A program made the position numbers and the translations under genes. Of a stretch of DNA of 64,000 nt, positions 9,762 to 49,016 are shown one piece after another. Below the pieces are notes generated by a model. It made no database searches and had not been told where the DNA came from. It was given only the letters and a program-made list of their open reading frames with translations. The DNA comes from Acinetobacter sp. ANC 4558 (lineage in GTDB: Bacteria > Pseudomonadota > Gammaproteobacteria > Pseudomonadales > Moraxellaceae). Numbering within the stretch: position 1 is the first letter of the stretch; each line of letters opens with the position of its first letter. The DNA lies in the NCBI RefSeq assembly GCF_002135375.1, contig NZ_NEGH01000003.1:186001-250000 (forward strand), read 5' to 3'.

Positions 9762-11306
9762 ATGAAAATTAGAGCACAAATTGGTATGGTGCTAAACCTT
9801 GATAAATGTATTGGTTGCCATACTTGTTCAATTACATGTAAAAACGTTTGGACCAGTCGCGATGGTATTGAATATGCTTGGTTCAATAACGTAGAAACTA
9901 AACCAGGTATTGGTTACCCCAAACAATGGGAAAATCAAAATATTCATAAAGGAGGATGGGTTCGTAAAAAAAATGGTAAGTTGGAATTAAAACAAGGCAG
10001 TAAACTAAAAATATTATCAAATATATTTTCGAACCCAAACTTACCAAGTATTGACCAATACTACGAACCTTTTACTTATGATTATGAGCATTTACAAAAT
10101 GCTCCCGAAATGAAAACACCGCCAACAGCAAGACCTGTCTCTGTATTAACAGGGAAAAAAATGGATAAAATCCATTGGGGACCAAACTGGGAAGATGATT
10201 TAGGGGGTGAGTTTCATCAGCGTTCTAAAGACCAGCTCTTTGAAGGTATTCAAAAAGAAATGTATTCTACTTTTGAAAATACCTTCATGATGTATCTACC
10301 TCGTTTATGTGAGCATTGTTTAAATCCTGCGTGTGTTGCATCTTGTCCTTCAGGTTCAATTTATAAGCGTGAAGAAGATGGTGTTGTTTTGATTGATCAA
10401 GATAAATGCCGCGGATGGAGAATGTGTATTTCAGGTTGTCCATACAAAAAAATTTACTATAACTGGACCAGTGGTAAAGCTGAAAAATGCATTTTTTGCT
10501 ATCCACGCATAGAGGCAGGACAACCGACAGTTTGTTCAGAAAGCTGTGTAGGGCGAATTCGTTACTTAGGTGTCTTGTTATATGATGCCGATAAAATTGA
10601 ACAGGCTGCTTCAGTTTCAAATGAACAAGATTTATATCAGTCACAACTCGATTTATTCTTAGATCCAAACGATCCAATTGTTCAAGCAGAAGCACTCAAA
10701 CAAGGTATTCCTCAAGCATGGATTGATGCTGCGAAAAATTCACCTATTTATCGCATGGCAATTGAATGGAAAGTAGCATTTCCATTACATCCAGAATATC
10801 GAACTTTACCAATGGTTTGGTATATTCCACCTCTATCCCCGATTCAATCTGCAATTGAAAGTGGTGTCATTGGAAAACATGGACTTATTCCAGAAGTTAA
10901 AGATTTACGAATCCCATTACAATATCTTGCGAACTTACTCACAGCGGGTAAAGAAGAACCTGTATTACAAGCACTTGAAACAATGCTCACAATGCGCCGT
11001 TATATGCGTCAAAAACATGTTCCGCAAACAAATATTAGCATGACTGAAATATTACAAAGCACGCATTTATCCAGTCAGCAAATTGAAGAAATGTATCAAA
11101 TTATGGCCATTGCTAACTATGAAGATCGCTTTGTAATTCCAAGCTCTCATAAAGAATATGCCGAAGATACTTTTATGGATAAAGGCGCTTGTGGCTTTAG
11201 TTTTGGTAATGGCTGCTCAGATGGAACATCTTCTGCCAGTTTATTTGGACAACGTAAAGCATCACCCACAGTGTTCTTTAGCACACGTGGAGGAGGAAAA
11301 TCATGA
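9762..11306 (+). CDS. narH: Respiratory nitrate reductase beta subunit NarH
   Basis: 514 residues, similar to E. coli NarH (512). It carries one [3Fe-4S] and three [4Fe-4S] clusters that pass electrons from NarI heme to NarG. Four cysteine groups are visible: KCIGCHTCSITCKNVW near residues 15-30, CEHCLNPACVASCP near 184-197, CRGWRMCISGCP near 217-228 (Trp in place of the second Cys, as expected for the [3Fe-4S] site), and KCIFCYPRIEAG with CSESCVG near 244-268. It follows narG by 25 bp with an AAGGAAAA ribosome site and overlaps narJ by 4 bp (ATGA). Confidence 0.98.
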   Translation: MKIRAQIGMVLNLDKCIGCHTCSITCKNVWTSRDGIEYAWFNNVETKPGIGYPKQWENQNIHKGGWVRKKNGKLELKQGSKLKILSNIFSNPNLPSIDQYYEPFTYDYEHLQNAPEMKTPPTARPVSVLTGKKMDKIHWGPNWEDDLGGEFHQRSKDQLFEGIQKEMYSTFENTFMMYLPRLCEHCLNPACVASCPSGSIYKREEDGVVLIDQDKCRGWRMCISGCPYKKIYYNWTSGKAEKCIFCYPRIEAGQPTVCSESCVGRIRYLGVLLYDADKIEQAASVSNEQDLYQSQLDLFLDPNDPIVQAEALKQGIPQAWIDAAKNSPIYRMAIEWKVAFPLHPEYRTLPMVWYIPPLSPIQSAIESGVIGKHGLIPEVKDLRIPLQYLANLLTAGKEEPVLQALETMLTMRRYMRQKHVPQTNISMTEILQSTHLSSQQIEEMYQIMAIANYEDRFVIPSSHKEYAEDTFMDKGACGFSFGNGCSDGTSSASLFGQRKASPTVFFSTRGGGKS

Positions 11307-35094: not shown

Positions 35095-36222
35095 TTAAAT
35101 TTTCACCAAGTACTCAGCACTTAATTTTTTGATCGAACTACAGCCTAATTGCGCTAATGTACGGTCAATATCTTGCTTAAGTAAATGAATCACATCATCC
35201 ACACCTTGCTCTCCTTTTGCTGCTAGACCATATAACGTCGCGCGTCCTAAGCAAACCATGTCTGCCCCTAAGCATAAAGCTTTAACAATATCAGAGCCTC
35301 GTCTAAAACCACTATCAATTAAGACAGCACCTTGCATATTTTGAGCAACTGTATTCAGTGTTTCCATAGGTGAAATGCTGCAATCTAACTGTCGACCACC
35401 ATGATTAGATAGAATAACTCCATCTGCACCACATTCAATACTACGTTGTGCATCTTCAAGACGAACAATACCTTTAACCAATAATGTATGTGGCCAAATT
35501 TCTCGAATTCTTTTTAAACTCTCCAGATCAAAACTTGCATCCATTTGTCTGCTCATAAGTGCCGCTTGAACTTCTAAACTATTTGCCTCGGAAGTCACAA
35601 AGTTTGCTAATTCAGGCATACCACTACGTAAAAATCTTAAAGACCATGCAGGATGTAATAAACTATCCATCACTAAACTCGGTGATAAACGTAAAGGTAA
35701 ACTAAATTCATTTCTAATATCTCGTTCTCTATACCCATTTACACCAACATCAAGTGTAATAATTAAGGTTGTATATCCTGCTTTTAAAGCCCGATTGACC
35801 ATTTGTATAGCGAGCTCTTGATGTACAACATAGAGCTGAAACCATTTTTCGCCATCACATGCTTGTGCAACGTCTTCTATCGACATATTTGATGCCGTTG
35901 AAAGCATGAATGGAATATTTGCTTTGGCTGCGCTTTTTGCTAATAGGCTATCAGCCTTAGGCCATAATGAACCATTCAAACCCGTCGGTGCGATGGCAAA
36001 TGGAGCATCCCATTTTTTATTAAATAATTCACAAGAAATATCTCTACGGCTAATATCAATTAAGCGGTGAGGTTTAAACCGCCATTGATCAAATACCGCT
36101 CTATTCTGCTGTAATCCTTTTTCATCTTCAGCACCCCCATCCAAATAATCAAAAATGATCCGAGGTAAGGTTGCTTTCGCTTGCAGGCGATAATCTTCTA
36201 CATTAATTAATTTACGAGACAA
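35095..36222 (-). CDS. mdlB: L-mandelate (S-mandelate) dehydrogenase MdlB, FMN-dependent
   Basis: 375 residues from TTG 36222. Oxidises L-mandelate to benzoylformate, passing electrons to quinone. Closely follows Pseudomonas putida MdlB: NVEDYR at the N-terminus, APTGLNG (glycine where lactate oxidases have Ala) near residue 75, LSTASNMSIEDVA near 102-114, QLYVVH, VNGYRERD near 166-173, an internal membrane-binding segment near 175-210 (LHPAWSLRFLRSGMPELANF), and the catalytic LSNHGGRQLDCSISPME. A longer frame reaches 36261, but AGGAAG just before TTG 36222 and the match MSRKLINVEDYR to P. putida MSQNLFNVEDYR fix the TTG start. Third gene after mdlC and dld. Confidence 0.9.
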   Translation of the reverse strand: MSRKLINVEDYRLQAKATLPRIIFDYLDGGAEDEKGLQQNRAVFDQWRFKPHRLIDISRRDISCELFNKKWDAPFAIAPTGLNGSLWPKADSLLAKSAAKANIPFMLSTASNMSIEDVAQACDGEKWFQLYVVHQELAIQMVNRALKAGYTTLIITLDVGVNGYRERDIRNEFSLPLRLSPSLVMDSLLHPAWSLRFLRSGMPELANFVTSEANSLEVQAALMSRQMDASFDLESLKRIREIWPHTLLVKGIVRLEDAQRSIECGADGVILSNHGGRQLDCSISPMETLNTVAQNMQGAVLIDSGFRRGSDIVKALCLGADMVCLGRATLYGLAAKGEQGVDDVIHLLKQDIDRTLAQLGCSSIKKLSAEYLVKI

Positions 36223-36247
36223 AGTGACTTCCTTTATTTCATTTAAA

Positions 36248-37954
36248 CTAGATTTTTCCAATTGGATTCCAATACTTGTATTTGCTGGTTTTGCCGATAC
36301 CAGGATTAAAACTATTTGTTGGGTCTAGTTGTTTTAAATGTGCTTGATAATCTGCGGATGCACTGTATAAATGTCCTACATTATGTTCTGCAGGATATTT
36401 AGCTCCACGAGATTCTAGATAAGTAAGAACTTCATTTTTAAACTGTTTTATATCTACACCATCTTTTAATAAATAATCTTGATGAGAAACAAAACAGAAA
36501 AAATGCCCACAGCAACTTTCCATTAAAACCTGATTCTGTAAGTGTTCTGGTAATTGAATTAACCATTGCTGGTCTGTTCTACAAAATGCCACATCAAATG
36601 AAACCAAGCGCTGATTTGGATCAATTTCATGGCTTTCACAATAGTAAATAATGCACCCACCGACAGCAAAACGAATGAGAAAAATATTTTTTTCTTCTTT
36701 TGCTGTACATTGGAAAAACTGTATTGGTTTTTCAGATGAAAAATGAGTCAATAACTGCTGTAATTCATGCCTTTGTTGTGCATCTATTTTAAGCATCAGC
36801 AAGTGGGGATATTGCTGATGAAAGTTTAATATTCTCGGTTCAATCCAAGAGGGAGTCATGCGATTAAAGAGTTGAATGAAACGATCAGCCATATTTTTTG
36901 GAAAAAATGGCGCTTTTTGAAAAAAACGGTCAATTTTGAATTTTAAATTGAATAGTTCAGGAATTTTTTCAGCACCCCAAATATCAATGGCTTTATACAT
37001 ATGTTTTGCATAACGCTGTGTTAATTGAAATGCGTGTTGATGAATATACTCTGCTTGACTTGGCAACACCGACAAATGCTTTAATAAATATTGACGTAAT
37101 TGAATTAGTGCTAATTCATCATGGCTTCCAATCAAAAAGGTCACAGAATCTGTAGCTTGTTCAAAAGTCGGTAATCTCACTGCAAAGACTGCGAGTTTTC
37201 CTGAACATCCAGCAGCTTCATATAAGTATGTAGGATTACCGTTATATCGGGTTGGTGTTGGGGTATGTATATCCCGTAAATTCTCTGCATAATTTTCTGC
37301 CCAAATTCGACCATCCCACAAATCATTTTGTTCAATTTGATAATTTTTCTGTTCTAAATTTTGAAAAATTTCCTCAGGTGTACTACCTAATTCTATGCCT
37401 AAATGATTCACTAAGATTAATGCTCCATTTTCATCAATCTGCGCAAATAATGCTTTTTCTGTATAAGCAGGACCTCGATGAATTAAGGAGCCACCTGAAT
37501 TATTACAAACACCCCCGATTACAGAAGCACCAATACATGAAGAACCAATAACGGAATGTGGTTCTCTTCCATAAGGCTTCAGTGCATTTTCTAACTCTGT
37601 TAATGAGGTTCCAGGAAAGGCAAGGACTTGATTCACTTGTTCTAATAAATGTAAACCTTTTAATTTTTTGGTGCTGACCACCACAACATTTCGGTCATAA
37701 TCGTCCGCGTCAGGCGTAGAACCACCTGTAACTCCTGTGTTTGCTGCTTGTAAAATCATCACAACATCGTGTGTGACACAGCACACTAAGATATTCCATA
37801 ATTCAAGTAAAGTATGGGGAATAACAACAGCAATTGCATCTCCTTTTCCAACTCTAAATCCTTTCAAATAAGGTGACATAATCGGCTTTTCAATCAATAT
37901 TTGAGTTGGCTTTAAAATTTTTTGAAATGCTTGAATAATTGGATCATTTTGCAC
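36248..37954 (-). CDS. Dld-family FAD D-2-hydroxyacid dehydrogenase, probable D-mandelate dehydrogenase
   Basis: 568 residues, close to E. coli quinone-dependent D-lactate dehydrogenase Dld (571). FAD-binding region with QAANTGVTGGSTP near residues 74-86, REPHSVIGSSCIGASVIGG and CNNSGGSLIHRGPAYTE near 135-175; the C-terminal part ends DPTNSFNPGIGKTSKYKYW, as in Dld. GTG start at 37954, preceded by AGGAGT; the GTG at 37972 would bury that ribosome site. It sits between benzoylformate decarboxylase and L-mandelate dehydrogenase. Acinetobacter calcoaceticus is known for separate membrane D- and L-mandelate dehydrogenases, the D enzyme resembling D-lactate dehydrogenase, so D-mandelate is the likeliest substrate; D-lactate is the alternative. 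Confidence 0.8.
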   Translation of the reverse strand: MQNDPIIQAFQKILKPTQILIEKPIMSPYLKGFRVGKGDAIAVVIPHTLLELWNILVCCVTHDVVMILQAANTGVTGGSTPDADDYDRNVVVVSTKKLKGLHLLEQVNQVLAFPGTSLTELENALKPYGREPHSVIGSSCIGASVIGGVCNNSGGSLIHRGPAYTEKALFAQIDENGALILVNHLGIELGSTPEEIFQNLEQKNYQIEQNDLWDGRIWAENYAENLRDIHTPTPTRYNGNPTYLYEAAGCSGKLAVFAVRLPTFEQATDSVTFLIGSHDELALIQLRQYLLKHLSVLPSQAEYIHQHAFQLTQRYAKHMYKAIDIWGAEKIPELFNLKFKIDRFFQKAPFFPKNMADRFIQLFNRMTPSWIEPRILNFHQQYPHLLMLKIDAQQRHELQQLLTHFSSEKPIQFFQCTAKEEKNIFLIRFAVGGCIIYYCESHEIDPNQRLVSFDVAFCRTDQQWLIQLPEHLQNQVLMESCCGHFFCFVSHQDYLLKDGVDIKQFKNEVLTYLESRGAKYPAEHNVGHLYSASADYQAHLKQLDPTNSFNPGIGKTSKYKYWNPIGKI

Positions 37955-38002
37955 GTTGCTACTCCTTTGCACCCTGCTACCTTACCCTTTGGATTTCATC
38001 AT

Positions 38003-39586
38003 TTACTGATGATTTGCTGTTAAAACCTCAATCAATGTTGGCTTATCTGAATTTAATGCCTGCTGAAAAGTGTAAATAAATTCTTCATCTTGACAAACAC
38101 TATAAGCATTTACGCCATAACCTTGAGCAATTTGGCTAAAATTGATATCTGGGACATCCATTCCAGGTACATTTTTAGCATTCAAAACATCTGCAAACCA
38201 ACGTAATGCACCATATGTTCCATTTTTAAGAATAATAAAAATAACAGGAATTTTATACTGAGCAGCAGTCCATAACGCAGTAATACTATAATTCGCAGAA
38301 CCATCGCCAATAATTGCAACAACTTTTCGCTGTGACTGTGCCAATTGAATTCCAACCGCTGCTGGCATTGCAAATCCAAGACCACCTGCGGCTGCAAAAT
38401 AATAACTGCCTTGTCCTGTTAAGCTTAAACGCTCCCAAAGTATATTGGTGGTAGAGGTTGATTCATTGGTATAAATTGTGTGCTCAGGACTGAACTGATT
38501 AATCAAATCGAATAAACGTTCAGGTTGAATAAACTGATGTTGACTTGACTCCGCTAATTCAACTGTTGGGCGCAATGGGACATTCGTCGTTTTTGTCTCT
38601 ACAATTTCACTTAATCGAGTTAAACAATCCTCTAGATCGCAAATATAATTCGTTCCCATTGCAGCTCTGGCCGCTTCATGAATATCACACGAAAATGCAA
38701 TGAGTTTGGTTTGTGCTGCTAAATATTCACCTGGTTCATATTGGTGATAACGAAATACAGGTGCACCAAAAACAAGTACAAGATCATATTGCTCAAATAT
38801 GCTTGAAATACCTGCAATACTGGCAGGTAAAATTCCCTGAAAATGGGGATGCGTTGTTGGAAATGGGCAACGAGGAGAGGATGGTGCAACCCAGACAGGA
38901 GCATTTAAATTTTCAGCAAATTTAATGGCACTTTCATTTGCATATTGTCGATCAATATCTGTTCCAAAAACAATGGCAACATTTGTAGCTTGATTAATTT
39001 TTCCAGCAATTATATTTAAATAATGATGAGACAAACATTGTGAATCAACAACTTTCTTCGTCAGTAAATGATCATTTTGCTCGTCTACTTCAACATCCCA
39101 ATCACTATAAGGAATAGAGACATACACAGGCCCCGCAGCTTCAGCACCTGCAATATCAATTGCACGTTTAATTGCATGTGGAACTTCTTCTGCACTTGCT
39201 GGTTCGTGACTCCACTTTACTAATGGCTTAGGTAATTGTGCTGCCTCTAAGTTTGTCAGTAAGGCCTCAACACCCATCATTGCACGAGTTTGCTGTCCCG
39301 ATGTAATCACTAAAGGCGTATGAGAATTCCAAGCATTGCTTAAAGCGCCCATCGCATTCCCTGTCCCTGCTGCTGAATGTAGATTAACAAATGCAGGGCG
39401 TCCAGTTGCTTGGGCATATCCATCTGCCATCCCAACCACAGCACCTTCATGTAAGCCTAAAATATACTGAAAATCTACAGGGAAATCCTTTAAAAAAGGA
39501 AGTTCATTTGAACCTGGATTTCCAAATATTGTCGTTATTTCATTATTTCTTAAAATTTCATAAGTATAGTGATGAACTGTCTTCAC
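38003..39586 (-). CDS. mdlC: Benzoylformate (phenylglyoxylate) decarboxylase MdlC
   Basis: 527 residues, one less than P. putida benzoylformate decarboxylase (528) and collinear with it. ThDP enzyme: benzoylformate to benzaldehyde plus CO2. Active-site residues are at the same numbers: Ser26 (NPGSNELPF), Glu47, His70 (NLHSAAGTGNAMG), and the later His in FRYHQYEPG corresponding to His281. ThDP/Mg motif GDGSANYSITALWTAAQY near 426-443. GTG start at 39586 with AGGG upstream. First gene of mdlC-dld-mdlB; gaps of 48 and 25 bp suggest one transcript. Confidence 0.95.
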   Translation of the reverse strand: MKTVHHYTYEILRNNEITTIFGNPGSNELPFLKDFPVDFQYILGLHEGAVVGMADGYAQATGRPAFVNLHSAAGTGNAMGALSNAWNSHTPLVITSGQQTRAMMGVEALLTNLEAAQLPKPLVKWSHEPASAEEVPHAIKRAIDIAGAEAAGPVYVSIPYSDWDVEVDEQNDHLLTKKVVDSQCLSHHYLNIIAGKINQATNVAIVFGTDIDRQYANESAIKFAENLNAPVWVAPSSPRCPFPTTHPHFQGILPASIAGISSIFEQYDLVLVFGAPVFRYHQYEPGEYLAAQTKLIAFSCDIHEAARAAMGTNYICDLEDCLTRLSEIVETKTTNVPLRPTVELAESSQHQFIQPERLFDLINQFSPEHTIYTNESTSTTNILWERLSLTGQGSYYFAAAGGLGFAMPAAVGIQLAQSQRKVVAIIGDGSANYSITALWTAAQYKIPVIFIILKNGTYGALRWFADVLNAKNVPGMDVPDINFSQIAQGYGVNAYSVCQDEEFIYTFQQALNSDKPTLIEVLTANHQ

Positions 39587-39633
39587 AATAATTCCCTGAT
39601 TGTGGTGTTATACACAAATCATAGGAGGATTAA

Positions 39634-39688
39634 AAATATAGATCAAATGAATAATAAATATTATTAATTATAGTTTAAATCTATATTT
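39634..39688. promoter_or_regulatory. Inverted repeat upstream of mdlC, possible regulator site
   Basis: AAATATAGAT (39634-39643) and ATCTATATTT (39679-39688) form a perfect 10-bp inverted repeat 35 bp apart in the mdlC promoter region, just after the LysR gene. It could be a pair of LysR-type half-sites or coincidence in AT-rich DNA. Confidence 0.25.
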
Positions 39689-39759
39689 ATAATTTTTTTG
39701 CTTCTATTTCACCTGAATACAAAGTATGAGTAAAATGTTGTTTTTGCATGAATACTCAA

Positions 39760-40644
39760 TCATGAAAGTGTATCTTGTAAAAAATTAATAAACCATTTTT
39801 GTGCAATGACATCTCCTGCTTTTTTATACCAATGTAAGGTGACATCAAACTCTGGTAATTGAAATGGTGGCTCATAAATATTAATGTTTTCATTCGCTTC
39901 AAAATATGCCCCGATTCTCGAAGGCACTGTCACTATTAAATTATGTTTTTCAATTAATTCATTCAGAATACTAAACTGTGGAACGCGCAATTTTATTTTT
40001 CTTCTTAGACCTTTTTGATTCAAATAACTTTCAACTAAATTATGACCCGTAGATGCTGAAACAACTGCATGATTTTCTTTAAGAAACGTATCTAAATCCA
40101 ACTTGTTGTTGATAAGCTTTATATTTCGGCTAACTAAACACACATATTTTTCTTGAAATAATCTAAGCGTATTTAAGTTTCTTTCTTCGAGATTTTTATT
40201 ACAAATTGCTGCATCAATTTTCCCAGTAATGAGCCAGTCTGATAATTTATTCATATCGACAGTTACCACTTCCAAAGAGATATTTGGTGCAATTTTTTCT
40301 AAATCTTCATAAATTTTAGGTAAAAAATACATTCCACCAATATCTGTTAAGGCAATTTTAAAACAACGCTCACTATTTTTAATATCAAAATTTGTCACTT
40401 CACCAATGGTGTTTTCAATATCAATTAAGGGTTGATTCAAAGATTCATATAATTGGACGGAATACGCCGTTGGAATCATACCTTCTTTTGTTCTTGTAAA
40501 TAATTGATCTTTAAATATATGTCTTAATCTAGATAAATTATGACTCACTGAAGGCTGAGTAATATTTAAACGTTCAGCCGCAATACTAACACTACGCGTA
40601 TCGTAAATTGTAATAAATACTTTGACTAAGTTGAGGTCGATCAT
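39760..40644 (-). CDS. LysR-family regulator, probable mdl regulator
   Basis: 294 residues. N-terminal helix-turn-helix DLNLVKVFITIYDTRSVSIA with LNITQPSVSHNLSRLRHIF near residues 3-45, then an effector domain (IALTDIGGMYFLPKIYEDL near 95-113). The short DLN start and SVSHNLSRLR resemble the NodD/NahR/LeuO-type branch that often controls aromatic pathways. It lies 173 bp upstream of mdlC in the same direction and after the transporter terminator, so control of mdlC-dld-mdlB with mandelate or benzoylformate as effector is a reasonable inference. Confidence 0.82.
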   Translation of the reverse strand: MIDLNLVKVFITIYDTRSVSIAAERLNITQPSVSHNLSRLRHIFKDQLFTRTKEGMIPTAYSVQLYESLNQPLIDIENTIGEVTNFDIKNSERCFKIALTDIGGMYFLPKIYEDLEKIAPNISLEVVTVDMNKLSDWLITGKIDAAICNKNLEERNLNTLRLFQEKYVCLVSRNIKLINNKLDLDTFLKENHAVVSASTGHNLVESYLNQKGLRRKIKLRVPQFSILNELIEKHNLIVTVPSRIGAYFEANENINIYEPPFQLPEFDVTLHWYKKAGDVIAQKWFINFLQDTLS

Positions 40645-40893: not shown

Positions 40894-42564
40894 CTACTTG
40901 TTAATATCTACATTTTTTGTTTCTTTAAAGAAGATCAAACAAACGAATAAAGATAAAACAATCCAACACACGGGATACCATAAACCAAAGTATATATTTC
41001 CTGTTTGGATTGAAATGGCAAATGCAATTGTTGGTAAAAGTCCACCAACCCATCCACTTGCAAAATGATAAGGGAATGACATTGATGTATAACGAATTTT
41101 AGCAGGAAACATTTCAAGCAATGCTGGTGCAACAGGCGTTAAGGTAAATAAACCGCACCATACCAGTACAATAAGTAATGCAATGACAGGTCCTTTTCGA
41201 AACTCATCTGCATTTGCTTCTGTTGGAATGTTATTGGCTGCTAAATTCTCTTTTAAATTGGTCGTAATCTTAGCAATCGTTTCTTTATATCCTTCTTCCC
41301 CTACTTGAAAGTTTTCAATATGAGTATTGCCAACCGTAATAGATACATTCGAGATATTCGCGTCTTGTACTGTTGTATAACTTAACCCACTATTTGCTAA
41401 TGCTTGTTTTGCTAAATCACACGGTTTAGTAAATTGTCGAGTTCCCGTCGGATTAAACATAAAGGAGCATTTTTCTTCTGTGGGTAAGTTTAAATAAATA
41501 GGTGTTTTTTCCAAACTTGCGACCATACTTGGGTTTGCAAAATATGCAACGCCTTTAAATATAGGAAAAATCACCAAAGCAGTTAATGTAAAACCGATTA
41601 AAAGTGTTTTTTTACGACCGATTCTATCTGACAACCACCCTGAAAAGAGAAACATTGGTATCCCAGCGATCAATGATATTGTGACAACAGAATTTGCTAT
41701 TTGGGGATCAACTTTTAAAATTTGCGTTAAAAAGAAAGTCGGATAAAGTACTGCAATATAGTAAGCACATGTCATTCCCCCACAAATTCCAAAGAATGCA
41801 ATTAATAATCTTTTAATATTTGTTGGGTCTAAAAATGTATCTCTTAATGGCGATTTAGATAATGTTTTTTCTTTCTGCATTTTTTTAAATGCAGGTGACT
41901 CATCCATACCTTTACGAATTTTTATTGAAAAAAGTAACAGTAATAACGAAAATAAGAATGGAATACGCCATCCCCATTCATTAAACTCATCTCCAGTCAG
42001 CCAGCGTGAAATCATAATGACTGCAAATGCCAATAATAATCCAAGTGTTCCAGTTGCTGAAATCCAAGAAGTATTGAGCCCTCTATTTTTAGAAGTTGAG
42101 TGTTCTGCAACATACGTTGCTGCCCCACCGTATTCACCACCTAGCGCCAATCCCTGAATCATTCGCATTGTAATCAACAATAAGGGGGCCCAAATGCCAA
42201 TCTGATTATATGTTGGAAGTAAACCGACAATCACGGTACTAATTCCCATAATAATCACTGTAATCATAAAGGTCTTTTTTCGGCCAAGTTTATCGCCTAT
42301 CCGACCGAATACAACTGCACCAACAGGCCGCATAATAAAACCGACCGCGAAAATTAATAATGCAAAGATAAATCCTGTAGATGGGTCTAAACCCGAAAAA
42401 AAGTTTAATGCAATCACAGCTGCAAGTGCACCATAAAGAGTGAACTCATACCACTCAAATACGGTTCCGACAGATGCAGCAAAGATGACTTTTTTTGTTG
42501 CTTGATCTGGAACTTCCATGTGTTCAGCAGGTTGCCCTGCTATGGAATTTATTTCCTTTTCCAT
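40894..42564 (-). CDS. MHS-family MFS transporter with large periplasmic insert
   Basis: 556 residues. Metabolite:proton symporter type: SVGTVFEWYEFTLYGALAAV near residues 29-48, GRIGDKLGRKKTF near 88-100, GLALGGEYGGAATYVAEH near 141-158, and second-half GWLSDRIGRKKTLL near 310-323. These carry organic acids such as alpha-ketoglutarate, proline or aromatic acids. An unusual hydrophilic stretch near residues 350-450, between two late helices, contains paired Cys (KCSF, KPCD) and is absent from short MHS members such as E. coli ProP. Start chosen at 42564 because AGGAA lies six bases before it. Co-transcribed with the dehydrogenase 21 bp upstream. Substrate may be mandelate or another aromatic or branched acid. 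Confidence 0.83.
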   Translation of the reverse strand: MEKEINSIAGQPAEHMEVPDQATKKVIFAASVGTVFEWYEFTLYGALAAVIALNFFSGLDPSTGFIFALLIFAVGFIMRPVGAVVFGRIGDKLGRKKTFMITVIIMGISTVIVGLLPTYNQIGIWAPLLLITMRMIQGLALGGEYGGAATYVAEHSTSKNRGLNTSWISATGTLGLLLAFAVIMISRWLTGDEFNEWGWRIPFLFSLLLLLFSIKIRKGMDESPAFKKMQKEKTLSKSPLRDTFLDPTNIKRLLIAFFGICGGMTCAYYIAVLYPTFFLTQILKVDPQIANSVVTISLIAGIPMFLFSGWLSDRIGRKKTLLIGFTLTALVIFPIFKGVAYFANPSMVASLEKTPIYLNLPTEEKCSFMFNPTGTRQFTKPCDLAKQALANSGLSYTTVQDANISNVSITVGNTHIENFQVGEEGYKETIAKITTNLKENLAANNIPTEANADEFRKGPVIALLIVLVWCGLFTLTPVAPALLEMFPAKIRYTSMSFPYHFASGWVGGLLPTIAFAISIQTGNIYFGLWYPVCWIVLSLFVCLIFFKETKNVDINK

Positions 42565-42585
42565 ATTCATTTCCTATACGTTTAC

Positions 42586-43731: not shown

Positions 43732-43742
43732 TTGTATTACAA
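43732..43742. promoter_or_regulatory. GntR operator, copy 1 (ADH promoter)
   Basis: TTGTATTACAA, an 11-bp palindrome with one central base, 21 bp before the alcohol dehydrogenase start. Identical to the copies at 43801 and 47329. Flanking bases TAATA after it are shared with copy 3 read on the other strand. Confidence 0.75.
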
Positions 43743-43800
43743 TAATACGTTATTATAATTTTTTCAATCTATTTTACCTAAATCTTTAAAAATATACATA

Positions 43801-43811
43801 TTGTATTACAA
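43801..43811. promoter_or_regulatory. GntR operator, copy 2 (gntR promoter)
   Basis: TTGTATTACAA, 51 bp before the GntR ATG and 58 bp from copy 1 in the same divergent interval. Flanks CATA on the left and TCATA on the right resemble copy 3. Confidence 0.75.
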
Positions 43812-43862
43812 TCATATATCTTATATGATCGATATCATTTCATTCGAATTTTTCAACAGCAT

Positions 43863-44552
43863 ATGAATAGTCAAGATCAGTTATTAATCCAACCCGAAAC
43901 ATTAAGAGGGCAAGTGGAAAATAAATTGAGAGAGTGTATTCTTACTGGATATTTCCACCCAAATCAGAAGTTAGTCGAACGAGAACTTTGTGAAATGTTG
44001 GGTGTGAGCCGAACATCAATAAGAGAAGCATTGAGGAAACTTGAAGCTGAAAAATTAATTATTATTATTCCTCACAAAGGTCCAATTGTGACTTTGATTT
44101 CGATCCAAGAGGCAAAAGATATCTATGCCCTAAGAAAAGTCATGGAAGGTTATGCTTTTAAATTATTTTCACAAAATTCGACACTTGAACAAATTGAATT
44201 ATTAGCAAATGCAGTCAATGATTTAGAAAAAGATTTAGAAAGCAAAGAAAAAATATCTATTATTCATTCTAAAAATAAAATTTACGAAATATTATTCCAA
44301 CATTGTGGTAACACCTTAATTCAAGATGTCATTAATAGCATTAATTCAAGAGTCAATATTTTACGTAAAACCTCTCTACTTGATGAACAACGACTACAAG
44401 AAAGTATATTTGAAATTAAAGAAATTCTTGATGCGATTCGGGCTAGAAACCACGATCTAACTGAAAAACTATCAAATAAACATGTTGAAAATGCAGAAAA
44501 AACAGCTTTAAAGATTCTTGAGAAAATACATCAAGAATATGCTACAAAATAA
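43863..44552 (+). CDS. GntR-family regulator, FCD/FadR subfamily
   Basis: 229 residues. Winged helix with LRGQVENKLRECILTGYFHP, then LVERELCEMLGVSRTSIREALRKLEAEKLI near residues 37-66, the GntR signature. The C-terminal FCD domain is all-helical, with the metal-ligand region KDIYALRKVMEG near 89-100 and later histidines (HSKNKIYEILFQH). FCD regulators usually answer to small organic acids. Divergent from the dehydrogenase-transporter operon and convergent with the CMD-ALDH-HIBADH operon. Three identical TTGTATTACAA sites flank all these units, so it very likely controls them and itself. Confidence 0.88.
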   Translation: MNSQDQLLIQPETLRGQVENKLRECILTGYFHPNQKLVERELCEMLGVSRTSIREALRKLEAEKLIIIIPHKGPIVTLISIQEAKDIYALRKVMEGYAFKLFSQNSTLEQIELLANAVNDLEKDLESKEKISIIHSKNKIYEILFQHCGNTLIQDVINSINSRVNILRKTSLLDEQRLQESIFEIKEILDAIRARNHDLTEKLSNKHVENAEKTALKILEKIHQEYATK

Positions 44553-44565
44553 ATATTAAAGTCAT

Positions 44566-44584
44566 GAGGGGTAAATTACCCCTC
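44566..44584. terminator. Hairpin between convergent gntR and CMD genes
   Basis: GAGGGGTAA (44566-44574) and TTACCCCTC (44576-44584) are perfect complements around a single base. GC-rich relative to the region, located 13 bp after the gntR stop and 6 bp after the CMD gene. No T-run. Confidence 0.5.
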
Positions 44585-44590
44585 AAAGAT

Positions 44591-44962
44591 TCAAACTGAC
44601 TTGATCACATCTGAAGCAACTCTCATTGCTGCTAAACCACACGGTACTCCTCCATAAACAGCAGCTTGCCGAATAATTGCTGCAATTTCTTCATGTGAAA
44701 CACCATTGGTAATCGCACCTCGAACATGTACGCTCAGTTCATGATGTTGGCTTAAAACGGTCAACATTGCGATATTCAACATACTTCTAGTTTTGTAGTC
44801 TAAAGTCTCATCTCCCCAGACAGCACCCCAACAATATTCTGTGACTAACTCTTGCATGGGTTTATTCAGCTCATCCGCATTTTCCCAAGATTTTTCAACA
44901 TGTACTGCACCTAAAACCTGTTTTCTGTTTTTAAATCCTTGATCAAAATTTGAATTTGTCAT
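44591..44962 (-). CDS. Carboxymuconolactone-decarboxylase-like protein
   Basis: 123 residues, one CMD domain. EYCWGAVWGDETLDYKTRSM near residues 43-62 and LSVHVRGAITNGVSHEEIAA near 77-96 are typical of the PcaC/YurZ group; no CxxC, so not an AhpD-type peroxidase. PcaC itself decarboxylates 4-carboxymuconolactone in the protocatechuate pathway, but many relatives sit in unrelated catabolic operons with unknown roles, as here with aldehyde and hydroxyacid dehydrogenases. ATG overlaps the ALDH stop as TAATG. Last gene of its operon. Confidence 0.82.
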   Translation of the reverse strand: MTNSNFDQGFKNRKQVLGAVHVEKSWENADELNKPMQELVTEYCWGAVWGDETLDYKTRSMLNIAMLTVLSQHHELSVHVRGAITNGVSHEEIAAIIRQAAVYGGVPCGLAAMRVASDVIKSV

Positions 44963-46395
44963 TATTTACATACTCCATTACGTTTAATCACTGCTTTAAT
45001 TTCTAAATATTCATGTAATCCATACTCGCCCCATTCACGACCATTGCCAGACTGTTTATAACCGCCAAAAGGTGCATTAAAATCTGGAGGTGGATAGTTA
45101 ATTTGTACGTTACCTGCACGTATTCTTTTGGCAATTTCAAATGCCCTATTTTCATCATTCGATTGAATATAAGATGCCAGCCCATATGGGCTATCGTTTG
45201 CAATATCAATCGCCTCAGATTCAGAAAAATATGGAAGTATGACCAGTACAGGACCAAAAATTTCTTCTTGAGCAATGATCATTTTCGAGTGCACATCAGA
45301 AAAAATAGTTGGTTTTACAAAATATCCTTTCTCTAACCCTTCTGGTTTACCTAGACCACCATGAATTAATGTTGCACCTTCATTAATTGCAGTCTGAATC
45401 AAAGACTGAACTCGTTCATACTGTTTTAAATTAACCAAAGGCCCTAGTGTCGTTAATTCATTTGATGTATCACCTACGACATAAGACTGTGCGGCTTTAA
45501 TTGCAATTGTTTCGACATGCTTTAACTGACTTTGAGGGACTAATAATCTCGTCGGAATTGAACAAGATTGCCCTGAATTCGTGAAGCAAGCAGCAACTGC
45601 TAGAGTAATTACCGTATCAAAGTCAACATCATCCAAGACAATATTTGGTGACTTTCCACCTAGCTCTTGTGCAACACGTTTTACGGTAAGAGCTGCATTT
45701 TGAGCAACTTTAATTCCTGCTTGCGTCGAGCCAGTAAAAGAAATCATATCAATATCGGGATGCAATGAAATGGCTTCACCGACTTCATAATCACCATAAA
45801 CCAAGTTAAATACCCCATGAGGTACACCAGCTTCATGTAAAACTTGTGCAAACAATTGTGTACTTAAAGATGAATATTCACTTGGCTTAAGTACAACAGT
45901 ACAGCCCGTCGCTAAAGCAGGAGCTACTTTCACCATAATTTGATTAATCGGCCAGTTCCAAGGTGTAATCAAACCACAAACACCAATTGGTTCATGCAAA
46001 ATAAAACCTGTATTTGTACACTTCTGAAAATTAAAATTTTTCAAAGCCAATATTGCTGCTTCTAAATGAACCACACCACGTAAAGCTTGAGCATTTTTAG
46101 AAAAAGTAATGGGAGATCCCATTTCTATACGAATTAATTCTGCAAATTCATCCATTTTTTCTTTATAAATGTTCAGAATATTTTCTAAAAGGTTAATTCG
46201 ATATTCTACGGTACTATTCGAATAGCTTAAAAATGCATTTCGTGCTGCTTTAACGGCCTCATTCACATCTTCTTGATTACCCAAAGATAACACCCCAACC
46301 ACGTCTTCATTAGATGGGTTAATGAGTTCTAATACATTTGTTCCATGTGGTTGAGTCCATTGTCCATTAATATAAAACTGATCAATTTTCATCAT
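44962..46395 (-). CDS. NAD(P)-dependent aldehyde dehydrogenase
   Basis: 477 residues from the chosen ATG (alternatives at 46404 and 46392). Classical ALDH: GLITPWNWPINQIMVKVAPAL near residues 137-157, ISFTGSTQAG near 215-224, general-base Glu in QELGGKSPNIVLDD near 247-260, and catalytic Cys in FTNSGQSCSIPTRLLV near 274-289. EEIFGPVLVI near 380-389 also fits. Substrate not deducible, but it is the only aldehyde dehydrogenase near mdlC, whose product is benzaldehyde, and the operon also encodes a CMD protein and a hydroxyacid dehydrogenase. Overlaps or abuts the HIBADH-like stop. Confidence 0.88.
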   Translation of the reverse strand: MMKIDQFYINGQWTQPHGTNVLELINPSNEDVVGVLSLGNQEDVNEAVKAARNAFLSYSNSTVEYRINLLENILNIYKEKMDEFAELIRIEMGSPITFSKNAQALRGVVHLEAAILALKNFNFQKCTNTGFILHEPIGVCGLITPWNWPINQIMVKVAPALATGCTVVLKPSEYSSLSTQLFAQVLHEAGVPHGVFNLVYGDYEVGEAISLHPDIDMISFTGSTQAGIKVAQNAALTVKRVAQELGGKSPNIVLDDVDFDTVITLAVAACFTNSGQSCSIPTRLLVPQSQLKHVETIAIKAAQSYVVGDTSNELTTLGPLVNLKQYERVQSLIQTAINEGATLIHGGLGKPEGLEKGYFVKPTIFSDVHSKMIIAQEEIFGPVLVILPYFSESEAIDIANDSPYGLASYIQSNDENRAFEIAKRIRAGNVQINYPPPDFNAPFGGYKQSGNGREWGEYGLHEYLEIKAVIKRNGVCK

Positions 46396-46396
46396 G

Positions 46397-47290
46397 TTAT
46401 CCATCTAGATTACCAATTTTTTTATAAATTTCCGTATGATCTACATTAGCCTGACATTCTTTTGCCGATGTGTTCCAAAACTTAAAAACGGCATCACTCA
46501 AAGGCAAATTAAATTGCAAATTTTCTGTTAAATTTTTAGCAATATTTAAATCCTTATTCATTAAAATAAGTGAGAAACCTGAAGCATATGTTTCATTTAA
46601 AACAAATTGTTTAATTTTATTTTCAGATGCATTGGTTTTACCTGATGATGAGTTCAAGACATCTGTCATAATGTCTGGATCGATACCAAATTTTTCAGCA
46701 ACTTTTAAAGCCTCTATTGTTGCTGTCATCGCAGCTGCCGACACATAATTATTTAATGCTTTTGCTGCATGACCTGAACCACTCGTACCGACATAAATAA
46801 TTTTACTTCCCATACTCTTGAGCAATGCAATGTGTTCATTAAATAATTGGCGAGGTCCGCCAACCATGATAGTGATCTCACCAGAGACCGCTTTTTTTAC
46901 TCCTCCTGAAACAGGCGCATCTAAATATTGAAAGCCCTTTAAAGATAAAGTCTTTGCTAATGCTCTTGAGCGTAACGGCTCAGAGGAGCTCATATCAATA
47001 ATGACTGTATTTTCTCTTAACTGGGCGCAAACTCCGTCCCTGTCTTCGTCTCCGAGTAATGCTTTTTCTACAATATTTGAATTTGGCAACATGGTAATCA
47101 AAATATCTATCTGATGAAGCCTATTTAAATCCAATTGCTCAATACCATCAAAACTTAATGCTTTATCTACTTTTGCATGATCAAGATCTGAAACATATAT
47201 TTTATATCCGTGCTTATTGATTTGTTGAACCATAGGTAAACCCATCATTCCCAAACCAATAAAACCGATGACTTCACTTTTAAGTGACAT
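46397..47290 (-). CDS. 3-hydroxyisobutyrate-dehydrogenase-like beta-hydroxyacid dehydrogenase
   Basis: 297 residues. N-terminal cofactor motif GFIGLGMMGLPMVQQINKHG near residues 9-28, substrate-binding DAPVSGGVKKAVSGEITIMVGG near 118-139, catalytic lysine in GSGHAAKALNNYVSAAAM near 165-182. These define the HIBADH/tartronate-semialdehyde-reductase family. A start at 47296 is possible, but AAGGA is correctly spaced for ATG 47290. First gene of the operon with ALDH and CMD; TTGTAATACAA (the GntR site read on the opposite strand) lies 39-49 bp upstream. Exact substrate unknown. Confidence 0.86.
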   Translation of the reverse strand: MSLKSEVIGFIGLGMMGLPMVQQINKHGYKIYVSDLDHAKVDKALSFDGIEQLDLNRLHQIDILITMLPNSNIVEKALLGDEDRDGVCAQLRENTVIIDMSSSEPLRSRALAKTLSLKGFQYLDAPVSGGVKKAVSGEITIMVGGPRQLFNEHIALLKSMGSKIIYVGTSGSGHAAKALNNYVSAAAMTATIEALKVAEKFGIDPDIMTDVLNSSSGKTNASENKIKQFVLNETYASGFSLILMNKDLNIAKNLTENLQFNLPLSDAVFKFWNTSAKECQANVDHTEIYKKIGNLDG

Positions 47291-47328
47291 ACGCATTCCT
47301 TTGTCTCGTTAATATTTTTATTATATTA

Positions 47329-47339
47329 TTGTAATACAA
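47329..47339. promoter_or_regulatory. GntR operator, copy 3 (HIBADH-like operon promoter)
   Basis: TTGTAATACAA, which is TTGTATTACAA on the minus strand, the direction of the operon. Minus-strand context CATATTGTATTACAATAATA matches copy 2 on the left and copy 1 on the right. Confidence 0.75.
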
Positions 47340-47366
47340 TATGTCAACTTAAAATTTAATATTATT

Positions 47367-47383
47367 GTTTTGAAATTCAAAAC
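47367..47383. promoter_or_regulatory. 17-bp palindrome upstream of the SDR gene
   Basis: GTTTTGAA-A-TTCAAAAC is a perfect 8-1-8 inverted repeat, 78 bp before the ATG at 47462 and 77 bp from the divergent HIBADH-like start. Different from the GntR site, so it implies a second regulator in this divergent promoter. Confidence 0.45.
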
Positions 47384-47461
47384 AGTTCATGCATATATTT
47401 CGGATTAACAAATTAATCATTTTTCGCTAGGATTTTAACAACAGATCATGAGGAATATTCA

Positions 47462-48283
47462 ATGTCAAATACGGTTTTAATCACAGGTTGTTCATCAGGT
47501 GTTGGCGAAGCAACTGCGAAATTATTTGCAGCAAAAGGTTTTAGTGTGATTGCAACAATGCGATCACCTGAAGCTAATACAAGCTTAGATGGAATTAAAA
47601 ACTTAATTAAAGTCAGATTAGATGTCGAAGATATTTCAAGCATTCAACATGCAATAACAGAAGGTATTAAAATATTCGGACAAATCAATTTCGTCATTAA
47701 TAATGCAGGCTTTGGACAATATGGCATTTTTGAAGGAATGCCTATGGATAAAGTGCGGAAAAATTTTGATGTCAATGTATTTGGAGTAATGAATGTTATT
47801 CAACAAATGACCCCTATTTTTCGCCAACAAGGTGGTGGAGTGATTTTAAATGTCAGCTCTTGTGGTGGAATTGTGGGGCTCCCTCTCATTTCAATTTATG
47901 CATCAACTAAATTTGCTTTAGAAGGGTTTATAGAATCGATCTCTTATGAATTAGCATCACAAAATATTATCACCAAAATTTATGAACCAGGTGGCATTAT
48001 AAGCCCATTTCATCAACGTGCAGCAGAAGAAAATACAGGAAATAGTGATATTACAAGCTACGATAGTTTCATTGAAAATGTAAATAATGCAATGGGAAAA
48101 ATGGCAATTGGCGCAGCTTCGGTAGAACAAGTCGCACAAGATATTTTTGATGCAACCACAGATTCCACAGATAAGCTACGTTATTGTTCACCTTATGGTG
48201 TTGAACAATTGGTTCGTGCGCGACGTGAATTCAGTGATGAAAATTACGAAAAATTTGCACGTACACAATTGCCAAGAAAATAA
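47462..48283 (+). CDS. Short-chain dehydrogenase/reductase
   Basis: 273 residues. TGCSSGVGEATA near residues 7-18, RLDVED near 53-58, NNAGFGQYGIFE near 78-89, catalytic Ser in NVSSCGGIVG near 130, YASTKFALEGF with Tyr and Lys, then EPGGIISPF. The LDVED motif and GCSSGVG suggest NADP-type specificity weakly. Divergent from the HIBADH-like operon and followed 19 bp later by a RibD-like reductase, with which it probably forms a small operon. Substrate unknown. Confidence 0.82.
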   Translation: MSNTVLITGCSSGVGEATAKLFAAKGFSVIATMRSPEANTSLDGIKNLIKVRLDVEDISSIQHAITEGIKIFGQINFVINNAGFGQYGIFEGMPMDKVRKNFDVNVFGVMNVIQQMTPIFRQQGGGVILNVSSCGGIVGLPLISIYASTKFALEGFIESISYELASQNIITKIYEPGGIISPFHQRAAEENTGNSDITSYDSFIENVNNAMGKMAIGAASVEQVAQDIFDATTDSTDKLRYCSPYGVEQLVRARREFSDENYEKFARTQLPRK

Positions 48284-48302
48284 GTTATCTTAGAGAAATA
48301 CA

Positions 48303-49016
48303 ATGAAAAGACCCTATATTATTTGTCATATGTTGACTTCTTTAGATGGGAAAACATCTGGTGATTTCTTAGCCTCCCCAGAGATTATTCCTGCAACAAC
48401 TGCATATGAAAGAATTAATCATACATTTCATGCAACTGCTTGGCTCAGTGGTCGTATTTCGATGGAAGAGAGTTTTACTTTTTTCAAACAGCCCATGTTT
48501 GAAATAGATGCACCGATATATCCTAAAGAAGATTATATCGCAGAACCCCATGCTCAAATTTATATGGTGGTGATTGATACCACTGGAAAAGTTGCGTGGG
48601 AAAGTAATACGCTACATTATCAAGATCGACCCGCTGCCCATATTGTTGAAGTATTAACACATCAGGTGAAAGATGAATATGTTTCATACTTAAAACAACG
48701 GAAAATTTCATATATTTTTGCTGGAGAAAATCAATTAGATTTAGGCTTAGCCTTAGAAAAGTTATCTAATTTATTTGGAATAAAAACCTTAATTGTTTCT
48801 GGTGGCGGACGTACTAATGGTTATTTTTTAAAAGAAAATTATATCGATGAAATTAGCTTAATTATTTCTCCAGTCATTTCTGGCGATGATCACGCGATAA
48901 CACTCTTTCATGGTACAAATGAATTAAATAATGCGGTATCGACAGCTTATCAGCTCATACATACAGAAGCATTAGATGCAGGGGGTATTTGGCTACGATA
49001 TCGGCATATCACCTAA
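48303..49016 (+). CDS. RibD C-terminal / dihydrofolate-reductase-like reductase
   Basis: 237 residues. RPYIICHMLTSLDGKTSGDF near residues 3-22 is the N-terminal strand and loop of the RibD_C/DHFR-like fold; TLIVSGGGRTNGYFLKEN near 161-178 and EISLIISPVISG near 183-194 complete the NADPH-binding pattern. It lacks the deaminase half of RibD and lies far from other riboflavin genes, so a stand-alone NADPH reductase of unknown substrate is the best description. AGAGAAA ribosome site. Confidence 0.8.
   Translation: MKRPYIICHMLTSLDGKTSGDFLASPEIIPATTAYERINHTFHATAWLSGRISMEESFTFFKQPMFEIDAPIYPKEDYIAEPHAQIYMVVIDTTGKVAWESNTLHYQDRPAAHIVEVLTHQVKDEYVSYLKQRKISYIFAGENQLDLGLALEKLSNLFGIKTLIVSGGGRTNGYFLKENYIDEISLIISPVISGDDHAITLFHGTNELNNAVSTAYQLIHTEALDAGGIWLRYRHIT

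Follow-up and report, generated by a model that had tools for sequence, protein, structure and literature searches.

FCD-type repressors of the GntR family with operators such as those described here are well known, and regulation of this kind is standard. For the FadR subfamily, the available portion of PMC4494728 gives the consensus TKGT-N3-ACMA, with a centre of three nucleotides in most groups and of two nucleotides in MdcY and others. In the accessible text of PMC2230225, TNGTNNNACNA is quoted as a GntR-family operator, and primers in the available part of the CrgA paper carry ATTGTCTGACAAT. Excerpts of PMC12042122 describe AlkR of Pseudomonas aeruginosa SJTD-1 (FCD/VanR group, PDB 9ISW) as an FCD repressor with a DNase I footprint covering ATTGTCAGACAAT; R45 or R49 mutants bind DNA much less, and AlkR is released by long-chain acyl-CoA (C16/C18-CoA). 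Here, a stretch of 64,000 nucleotides from Acinetobacter sp. ANC 4558 (the window) was analysed, in which three exact copies of the mirror-symmetric 11-mer TTGTATTACAA lie at the promoter regions of gntR, encoding an FCD-type GntR protein, and of two further units (Table 1). These comprise the genes of an alcohol dehydrogenase (ADH) and a metabolite:H+ symport (MHS) transporter, and those of a HIBADH-family dehydrogenase, an aldehyde dehydrogenase (ALDH) and a carboxymuconolactone decarboxylase family protein (CMD).

The locus very probably represents an autoregulated regulon of the GntR/FCD repressor with the units ADH-MHS, gntR and HIBADH-ALDH-CMD. A dimer of the FCD-subfamily repressor would bind palindromes of the ATTGTATTACAAT type, cover the core promoters and thus block RNA polymerase sterically at all three units. 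Release would be brought about by a compound of the pathway, most likely a carboxylic acid on which HIBADH or CMD acts. The sequences themselves show the sites, their restriction to this locus among exact intergenic copies, their position in or on promoter-like elements and an operator class conserved with many related gntR genes; that the protein binds and represses, and what kind of compound releases it, we infer. The first-pass annotation had already read the three promoters as one GntR regulon, and the placement of the sites, the sites upstream of related gntR genes and the frame shared with AlkR support this.

The scan of the window returned the three exact copies where they had been placed and, as claimed before, no further one. 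The flanking bases were shared to a lesser extent than described: TMATA follows all three sites, while CATA precedes sites 2 and 3 but not site 1, which has AATT there. Sites 2 and 3 carry the entire 13-mer ATTGTATTACAAT; at site 1 its first place is taken by T. Five places with one mismatch to TTGTATTACAA were found outside the cluster (7954, 10960, 14471, 31710 and 40194), all inside listed open reading frames (ORFs). With up to two mismatches, 66 places were counted in the window against 63.75 expected; the count is at expectation, and the signal is therefore carried by the exact copies only.

At all three promoters, TTGTATTACAA conforms to the class TNGTNNNACNA/TKGT-N3-ACMA. The TKGT/ACMA palindrome with its 3-nt centre is shared with the FadR-subfamily regulons PdhR, LldR, GlcC and DgoR as far as these are covered by the available literature text. 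The ATTGT-N3-ACAAT frame of 13 bp is the one reported for AlkR-alkB2 in the accessible part of its description, where AlkR, like the GntR of the window, is an FCD-type protein with two helix-3 arginines four residues apart; 9isw was also among the PDB matches of the latter. The two systems differ in their targets. AlkR controls an alkane monooxygenase according to the same excerpts, whereas the window operators stand at the ADH, MHS, HIBADH, ALDH and CMD units, and no alkane monooxygenase was found at any of the three. The couple known as AlkR/VanR-AlkB, with gntR beside alkB2 and ATTGTCAGACAAT in the alkB2 promoter, was thus not present. MdcY, the malonate regulator, belongs to an FCD GntR group as well and its palindrome has the same half-sites, but with a 2-nt centre in the available portion of PMC4494728 as opposed to three nucleotides in the window, so that the window sites do not fall into the MdcY group. 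The genome itself has a likely MdcY gene beside MadL-like genes, named by reading its neighbours and not by a search, whose own promoter contains TTGTATACAA with a 2-nt centre (L135 1663-1672). The difference in the centre points to spacing as what could keep the two regulators apart.

TTGACA-16-TATAAT (47347-47320, minus strand), which matches the promoter consensus in 12/12 positions, contains site 3 in its spacer. Site 1 overlaps the -10 of TTGAAA-17-TATTGT (43767-43739, minus strand), its centre being located approx. 27 bp before the ADH GTG codon, and site 2 overlaps the -10 of the promoter-like TTTAAA-16-TACAAT (43785-43812, plus strand). All three sites are in or on a core promoter, which is the placement a steric repressor would need. 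Promoter-like matches were not above chance in the region (17 compared to 21.9 in shuffles), and the promoter calls other than that of site 3 are therefore weak when taken alone.

The genome (3,661,817 bases in 31 contigs) was scanned for the motif, as the first-pass annotation had proposed. It contains seven exact copies of TTGTATTACAA versus six of the reversed-pattern control; the motif as such is not enriched, and what sets the window copies apart is where they lie. All four remaining copies are within mechanically called ORFs (L001, L005, L006, L007). Ten ATTGTNNNACAAT sites were found, and the eight located elsewhere are all inside ORFs of at least 100 aa. Exact sites are hence not frequent in intergenic DNA, a high frequency there having been named as the finding that would speak against a regulon. 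Given a background of four copies per genome, the presence of three exact copies in two intergenic regions totalling 317 bp has a Poisson P of ~7e-12. The notion of a closed regulon of ADH, MHS, GntR, HIBADH, ALDH and CMD stands for exact and full ATTGTNNNACAAT sites only.

The regulator had been called an FCD-type GntR protein, and the domain search bore this out: the N-terminal GntR winged helix-turn-helix (PF00392, 6.1e-18) and the C-terminal FCD domain (PF07729, 3.8e-21) both scored above cut-off. All 22 relatives aligned keep R50 and R54, which are spaced as R45/R49 of AlkR. Metal-binding FCD regulators use an Asp and three His residues as metal ligands. These positions were compared by means of four printed alignments to solved FCD chains, two of which presumably show the same protein in two entries. 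Unlike in the solved chains, three of the four aligned residues are replaced. At the position aligned with the Asp, at least 90% of the 22 relatives carry Lys; one position aligned with a His is Tyr in 22/22, and a second is Ile, Leu, Met or Val with His in 0/22. Only the last aligned His, at position 207, is kept in 22/22. Due to these replacements, a metal-held carboxylate is unlikely in the GntR of the window. An effector domain in which only one of the four positions aligned with the usual metal ligands is kept is, as far as the alignments indicate, a new feature.

As the orthologue was absent from the other genus genomes searched, distant relatives were used for a footprint analysis. The contig search yielded 73 relative loci, of which 58 (L048-L104, L112) were used; the other 15 (L105-L111, L113-L120), being more distant or fragmentary, were excluded. 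The region inspected ran from -220 to +30 relative to the start of the tblastn match, and the shuffled controls keep base composition only. A full 8/8 match to TTGTNNNACAA was present upstream of gntR in 9/58 loci, compared to a mean of 0.2 (max 2) in shuffles and 0.35 (max 2) at random places within these loci. At least 7/8 positions matched in 28/58 loci, with means of 4.55 (max 10) and 3.3 (max 10) in the respective controls. When one locus per 75%-identity cluster was counted, full sites remained in 5/22 (0.06 shuffled, max 1) and sites of at least 7/8 in 9/22 (1.78 shuffled, max 6). Four plasmid loci had been added for this dereplicated analysis, giving 62 loci, and counts use the first member per cluster. 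The excess persists after dereplication, and thus the footprint signal is not produced by redundancy. The TTGTNNNACAA-type sites upstream of related gntR genes occur in Burkholderiales, Rhizobiales and Pseudomonas; in Pseudomonas marginalis (L049), the exact 11-mer starts 140 bp upstream of the gntR match.

The plasmid pHS1 of Sodalis praecaptivus carries the order MBL-NIPSNAP-HIBADH-ALDH-CMD-MFS-HIBADH-cupin-CMD-GntR. Here, TTGTATGACAA is found approx. 100 bp upstream of the first gene within TTGACG-16-GATAAT, and gntR, with which the row ends, lacks a full site. Paraburkholderia plasmids have a block similar to that of pHS1; its first MFS gene is preceded by TTGTATGACAG in TTGACG-16-TATAAT and its CMD gene by ATTGTCGGACAAT. 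The order HIBADH-ALDH-CMD is kept on the Sodalis and Paraburkholderia plasmids with identities of 47-53%, 59-61% and 64-68%; their GntR proteins are 47-49% identical to that of the window where complete, and a site of the same class is present. The rows (Sodalis L121 1371-9660, Paraburkholderia L140 1761-14168) include an AHL-lactonase-family MBL, NIPSNAP, ALDH, CMD, cupin and MFS genes and two or three HIBADH-type genes, to which MmgE/PrpD is added in Paraburkholderia. A second CMD-type gene is annotated as such in Sodalis and as hypothetical in Paraburkholderia.

On a plasmid of Rhodococcus qingshengii, TTGTATTACAAT (the exact 12-mer) starts 38 bp upstream of CMD-HIBADH-GntR, the GntR being 36% identical to that of the window over 204 residues. 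Judging by gene content and sites, the Rhodococcus plasmids carry what appears to be an actinobacterial version of the regulon. Full TTGTNNNACAA sites are located on Rhodococcus plasmid L142 at 7936-7947 and 11147-11157, one upstream of CMD-HIBADH-GntR and the other between maleylacetate reductase and P450 genes. Plasmid L143 has a full site of the maleylacetate reductase/P450 kind at 11275-11285 and a 7/8 site upstream of CMD.

CMD was encoded within 5 kb of gntR in 41/62 loci (9/22 dereplicated) and HIBADH in 24/62 (6/22 dereplicated). None of the other partners tested was as common, and transporters and further enzymes vary; the effector would accordingly be a compound on which CMD or HIBADH acts. 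The recurrent GntR-CMD-HIBADH linkage is new. In the literature searches made, no description of such a unit was seen, and no papers were found that join CMD, GntR and NIPSNAP or that deal with CMD/MmgE/GntR/ALDH degradation gene clusters.

An operator within the -35/-10 spacer was seen in the Acinetobacter genome (window site 3, 12/12) as well as on the Sodalis (10/12) and Paraburkholderia (11/12) plasmids, there at the first promoter of the operons that contain HIBADH. When the -35 was set to start 8 bases before the operator (offset -8), nine of 20 sites scored at least 9/12, compared to 0 to 2 sites at the other five offsets listed. These 20 sites are not independent, since L055-L057 are relatives of each other, as are L052/L054. 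One further Paraburkholderia site (L140a), which is placed one base off in the offset table, correctly scores 11/12 at offset -8.

Several results weigh against the proposed regulon or narrow it. The spacer geometry is missing at 8/20 sites, which score 1-3 at offset -8 (window site 1, L140b, L144b, both sites of L142, L049, L097 and L101), and the mean at this offset (6.5) exceeds those that follow it by a small margin (6.2 and 6.1). The geometry thus holds for a subset that consists partly of non-independent relatives. In the Rhizobium cluster, 7/8 was reached in only 1/15 loci. The best match was 5/8 in L050, L094, L098 and L099, and only 6/8 was attained at gntR in L051, L087, L100, L102-L104, L123 and L124. 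The operator class is, moreover, common to other FCD regulators. Within the genus, the window-type GntR was detected in 1/175 genomes (E 1e-45), and no close-range comparison is possible for this reason. The 13-mer ATTGTATTACAAT occurred ten times in 149 genus genomes versus nine times for the reversed control, i.e. at chance level. Eight of the ten matches are in six other genomes, none with a window-type GntR, and six of these eight are not covered by a closed ORF in 3-kb stretches, where ORFs running off the stretch were not counted. The sequence alone consequently does not mark the regulon. The six sites outside closed ORFs (L038, L040, L041, L042, L045 and L046) are either chance occurrences or sites of another regulator. 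Within 3 kb of the eight 13-mers in other genomes, no genes of the cluster were detected except for one ALDH match of 32% (L046).

The counts at chance level, namely those of the motif with up to two mismatches in the window, of the 11-mer in the genome and of the 13-mer in the genus, would also suit AT-rich palindromes that arose by chance and have no function. This explanation is scarcely credible in view of the three exact copies in so short a distance and of the recurrence of the site upstream of related gntR genes in GC-rich genomes. A different regulator acting at the sites, be it a second GntR of the FCD type or a LysR protein encoded at 39760, 49060 or 52024, deserves more attention, but is unlikely. 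TKGT-N3-ACMA is class-wide in the available portion of PMC4494728, the genome has seven GntR matches, one of which is the window gene, and the three LysR genes are within 10 kb. Three of the six other GntR matches were read, however, and one of them (C3, beside MadL-like genes) has the 2-nt-centre TTGTATACAA, while the other two have no TKGT-N(2-4)-ACMA site upstream. In addition, the site co-occurs with relatives of the window GntR. Tblastn with the three LysR proteins found none in 16/17 footprint loci, although this search was insensitive and missed a LysR-like ORF approx. 7 kb from the site in L049.

That GntR is an activator or dual regulator and not a steric repressor is improbable to a still higher degree. 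Some GntR proteins do activate, as reported for GntR1/2 on ptsG of C. glutamicum in the accessible text of PMC2230225. In the window, a predicted -10 is partly covered by each of sites 1 and 2, and site 3 is in the spacer of a perfect promoter; protein bound at these places would get in the way of the polymerase, and the sequence calls for no activator, although the promoter calls other than that of site 3 are weak. Autoregulated repression by the FCD-type GntR at the three promoters remains the preferred reading.

Table 1. Sites and genes of the proposed regulon, given as positions in the window
Feature	Position	Strand	Remark
Operator 1, TTGTATTACAA	43732..43742	+ (promoter on -)	overlaps predicted -10 TATTGT (43744-43739) of the ADH-MHS promoter
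Operator 2, TTGTATTACAA	43801..43811 (13-mer ATTGTATTACAAT 43800-43812)	+	overlaps -10 of the gntR promoter-like element
Operator 3, TTGTATTACAA	47329..47339 (13-mer 47328-47340)	-	inside the 16-nt spacer of the HIBADH-ALDH-CMD operon promoter
gntR, GntR winged helix-turn-helix + FCD domain, 229 aa	43863..44552	+	proposed repressor (domain search)
Zn-dependent alcohol dehydrogenase (ADH), 374 aa	42586..43710	-	listed GTG start
MHS (metabolite:H+ symport) MFS transporter	40894..42570	-	15 bp downstream of ADH
HIBADH-family beta-hydroxyacid dehydrogenase	46397..47296	-	first gene of the operon
Aldehyde dehydrogenase (ALDH)	44962..46404	-	8-bp overlap with HIBADH
PcaC-like carboxymuconolactone decarboxylase family protein (CMD)	44591..44962	-	1-bp overlap with ALDH
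Palindrome TGAGGGGTAAATTACCCCTCA	44565..44585	no strand	between the convergent ends of gntR and CMD

The substrate had been left unassigned by the first-pass annotation, and rightly so: ADH, ALDH, HIBADH, CMD, MHS and GntR scored below every NCBIfam cut-off among the matches shown. The nearest solved structures of ADH, ALDH, HIBADH, CMD and GntR are family-level relatives only and do not fix the substrate. The CMD is PcaC-like (TIGR02425, E 4.8e-37), but with 126.8 bits it is below the cut-off of 155.7 and not a member of this family. Its operon partners are ALDH and HIBADH, unlike those of PcaC, and include no protocatechuate genes. PhnR_burk (TIGR03338) was the best NCBIfam match of the window GntR with 110 bits, far below the cut-off of 271.5, and there was no phosphonate gene among the named proteins of the window.

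A tentative route can be drawn from the enzyme set, which is possible but not the probable outcome. MHS would take up the substrate, HIBADH would oxidise a hydroxy acid to a semialdehyde or keto acid, the PcaC-like CMD would decarboxylate it and ALDH would oxidise the resulting aldehyde, while ADH may feed in an alcohol. Somewhat more doubtful is the wider proposal that the GntR-CMD-HIBADH module in Pseudomonadota and Actinomycetota stands for an undescribed step, in which hydroxy-acid oxidation of the HIBADH type is followed by decarboxylation by a PcaC-like CMD, the acid is sensed without a metal-bound carboxylate, and the operator is kept while peripheral enzymes are exchanged. If so, the spacer-embedded promoter geometry would have been kept in several lineages along with the operator. 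The operator provides a testable regulon and, through effector-dependent release of GntR, a handle on the substrate of the recurrent CMD-HIBADH pathway.

The enzyme set also fits tropate-like chemistry. The regulon would then serve 3-hydroxy-2-arylpropanoates alongside the neighbouring mandelate genes, HIBADH giving the semialdehyde, CMD decarboxylating it and ALDH yielding the arylacetate. A mandelate-type cluster with benzoylformate decarboxylase does follow directly downstream on the same strand, but this assignment is very unlikely: no literature linking such genes to tropate was found, as judged by titles, the partner enzymes differ in the Rhizobium and Rhodococcus relatives, and benzoylformate decarboxylase occurs in eight other genus genomes, none of which has a window-type GntR (9/173 genomes in total).

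The mandelate-type cluster (35095-40644) is located downstream of the MHS gene and on its strand. It contains two flavin-dependent hydroxyacid dehydrogenase-like ORFs (35095-36261 and 36248-37972, named by reading), benzoylformate decarboxylase (38003-39586, above the NCBIfam cut-off) and a LysR regulator (39760-40644). The HIBADH orthologue was found in 1/173 genus genomes (1e-60), MHS in 4/173 (1e-120; the three others at 49-50% identity over ~400 of 558 residues) and CMD in 1/369 genomes of the class (1e-38). Nothing in the GC content pointed clearly to recent import.

A second perfect inverted repeat, ATCATATA-N3-TATATGAT (43811-43829), is directly downstream of operator 2; it could be another site of regulation or have arisen by chance. 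The TGAGGGGTAAATTACCCCTCA palindrome forms a stable stem-loop on both strands (z ~ -4) and may be a shared terminator of gntR and CMD; it was not among the terminator-scan calls for the region. An SDR gene and a RibD-C reductase gene (47462-49016) diverge from the HIBADH operon, and since the SDR promoter-like site (47370-47399) is clear of operator 3, both are probably outside the regulon. At a greater distance, the segment 3162-23062 carries narGHJI-like respiratory nitrate reductase genes, two NarK-like transporters, molybdenum cofactor and molybdate uptake genes and a NarXL-like two-component pair, all named from reading the ORFs.

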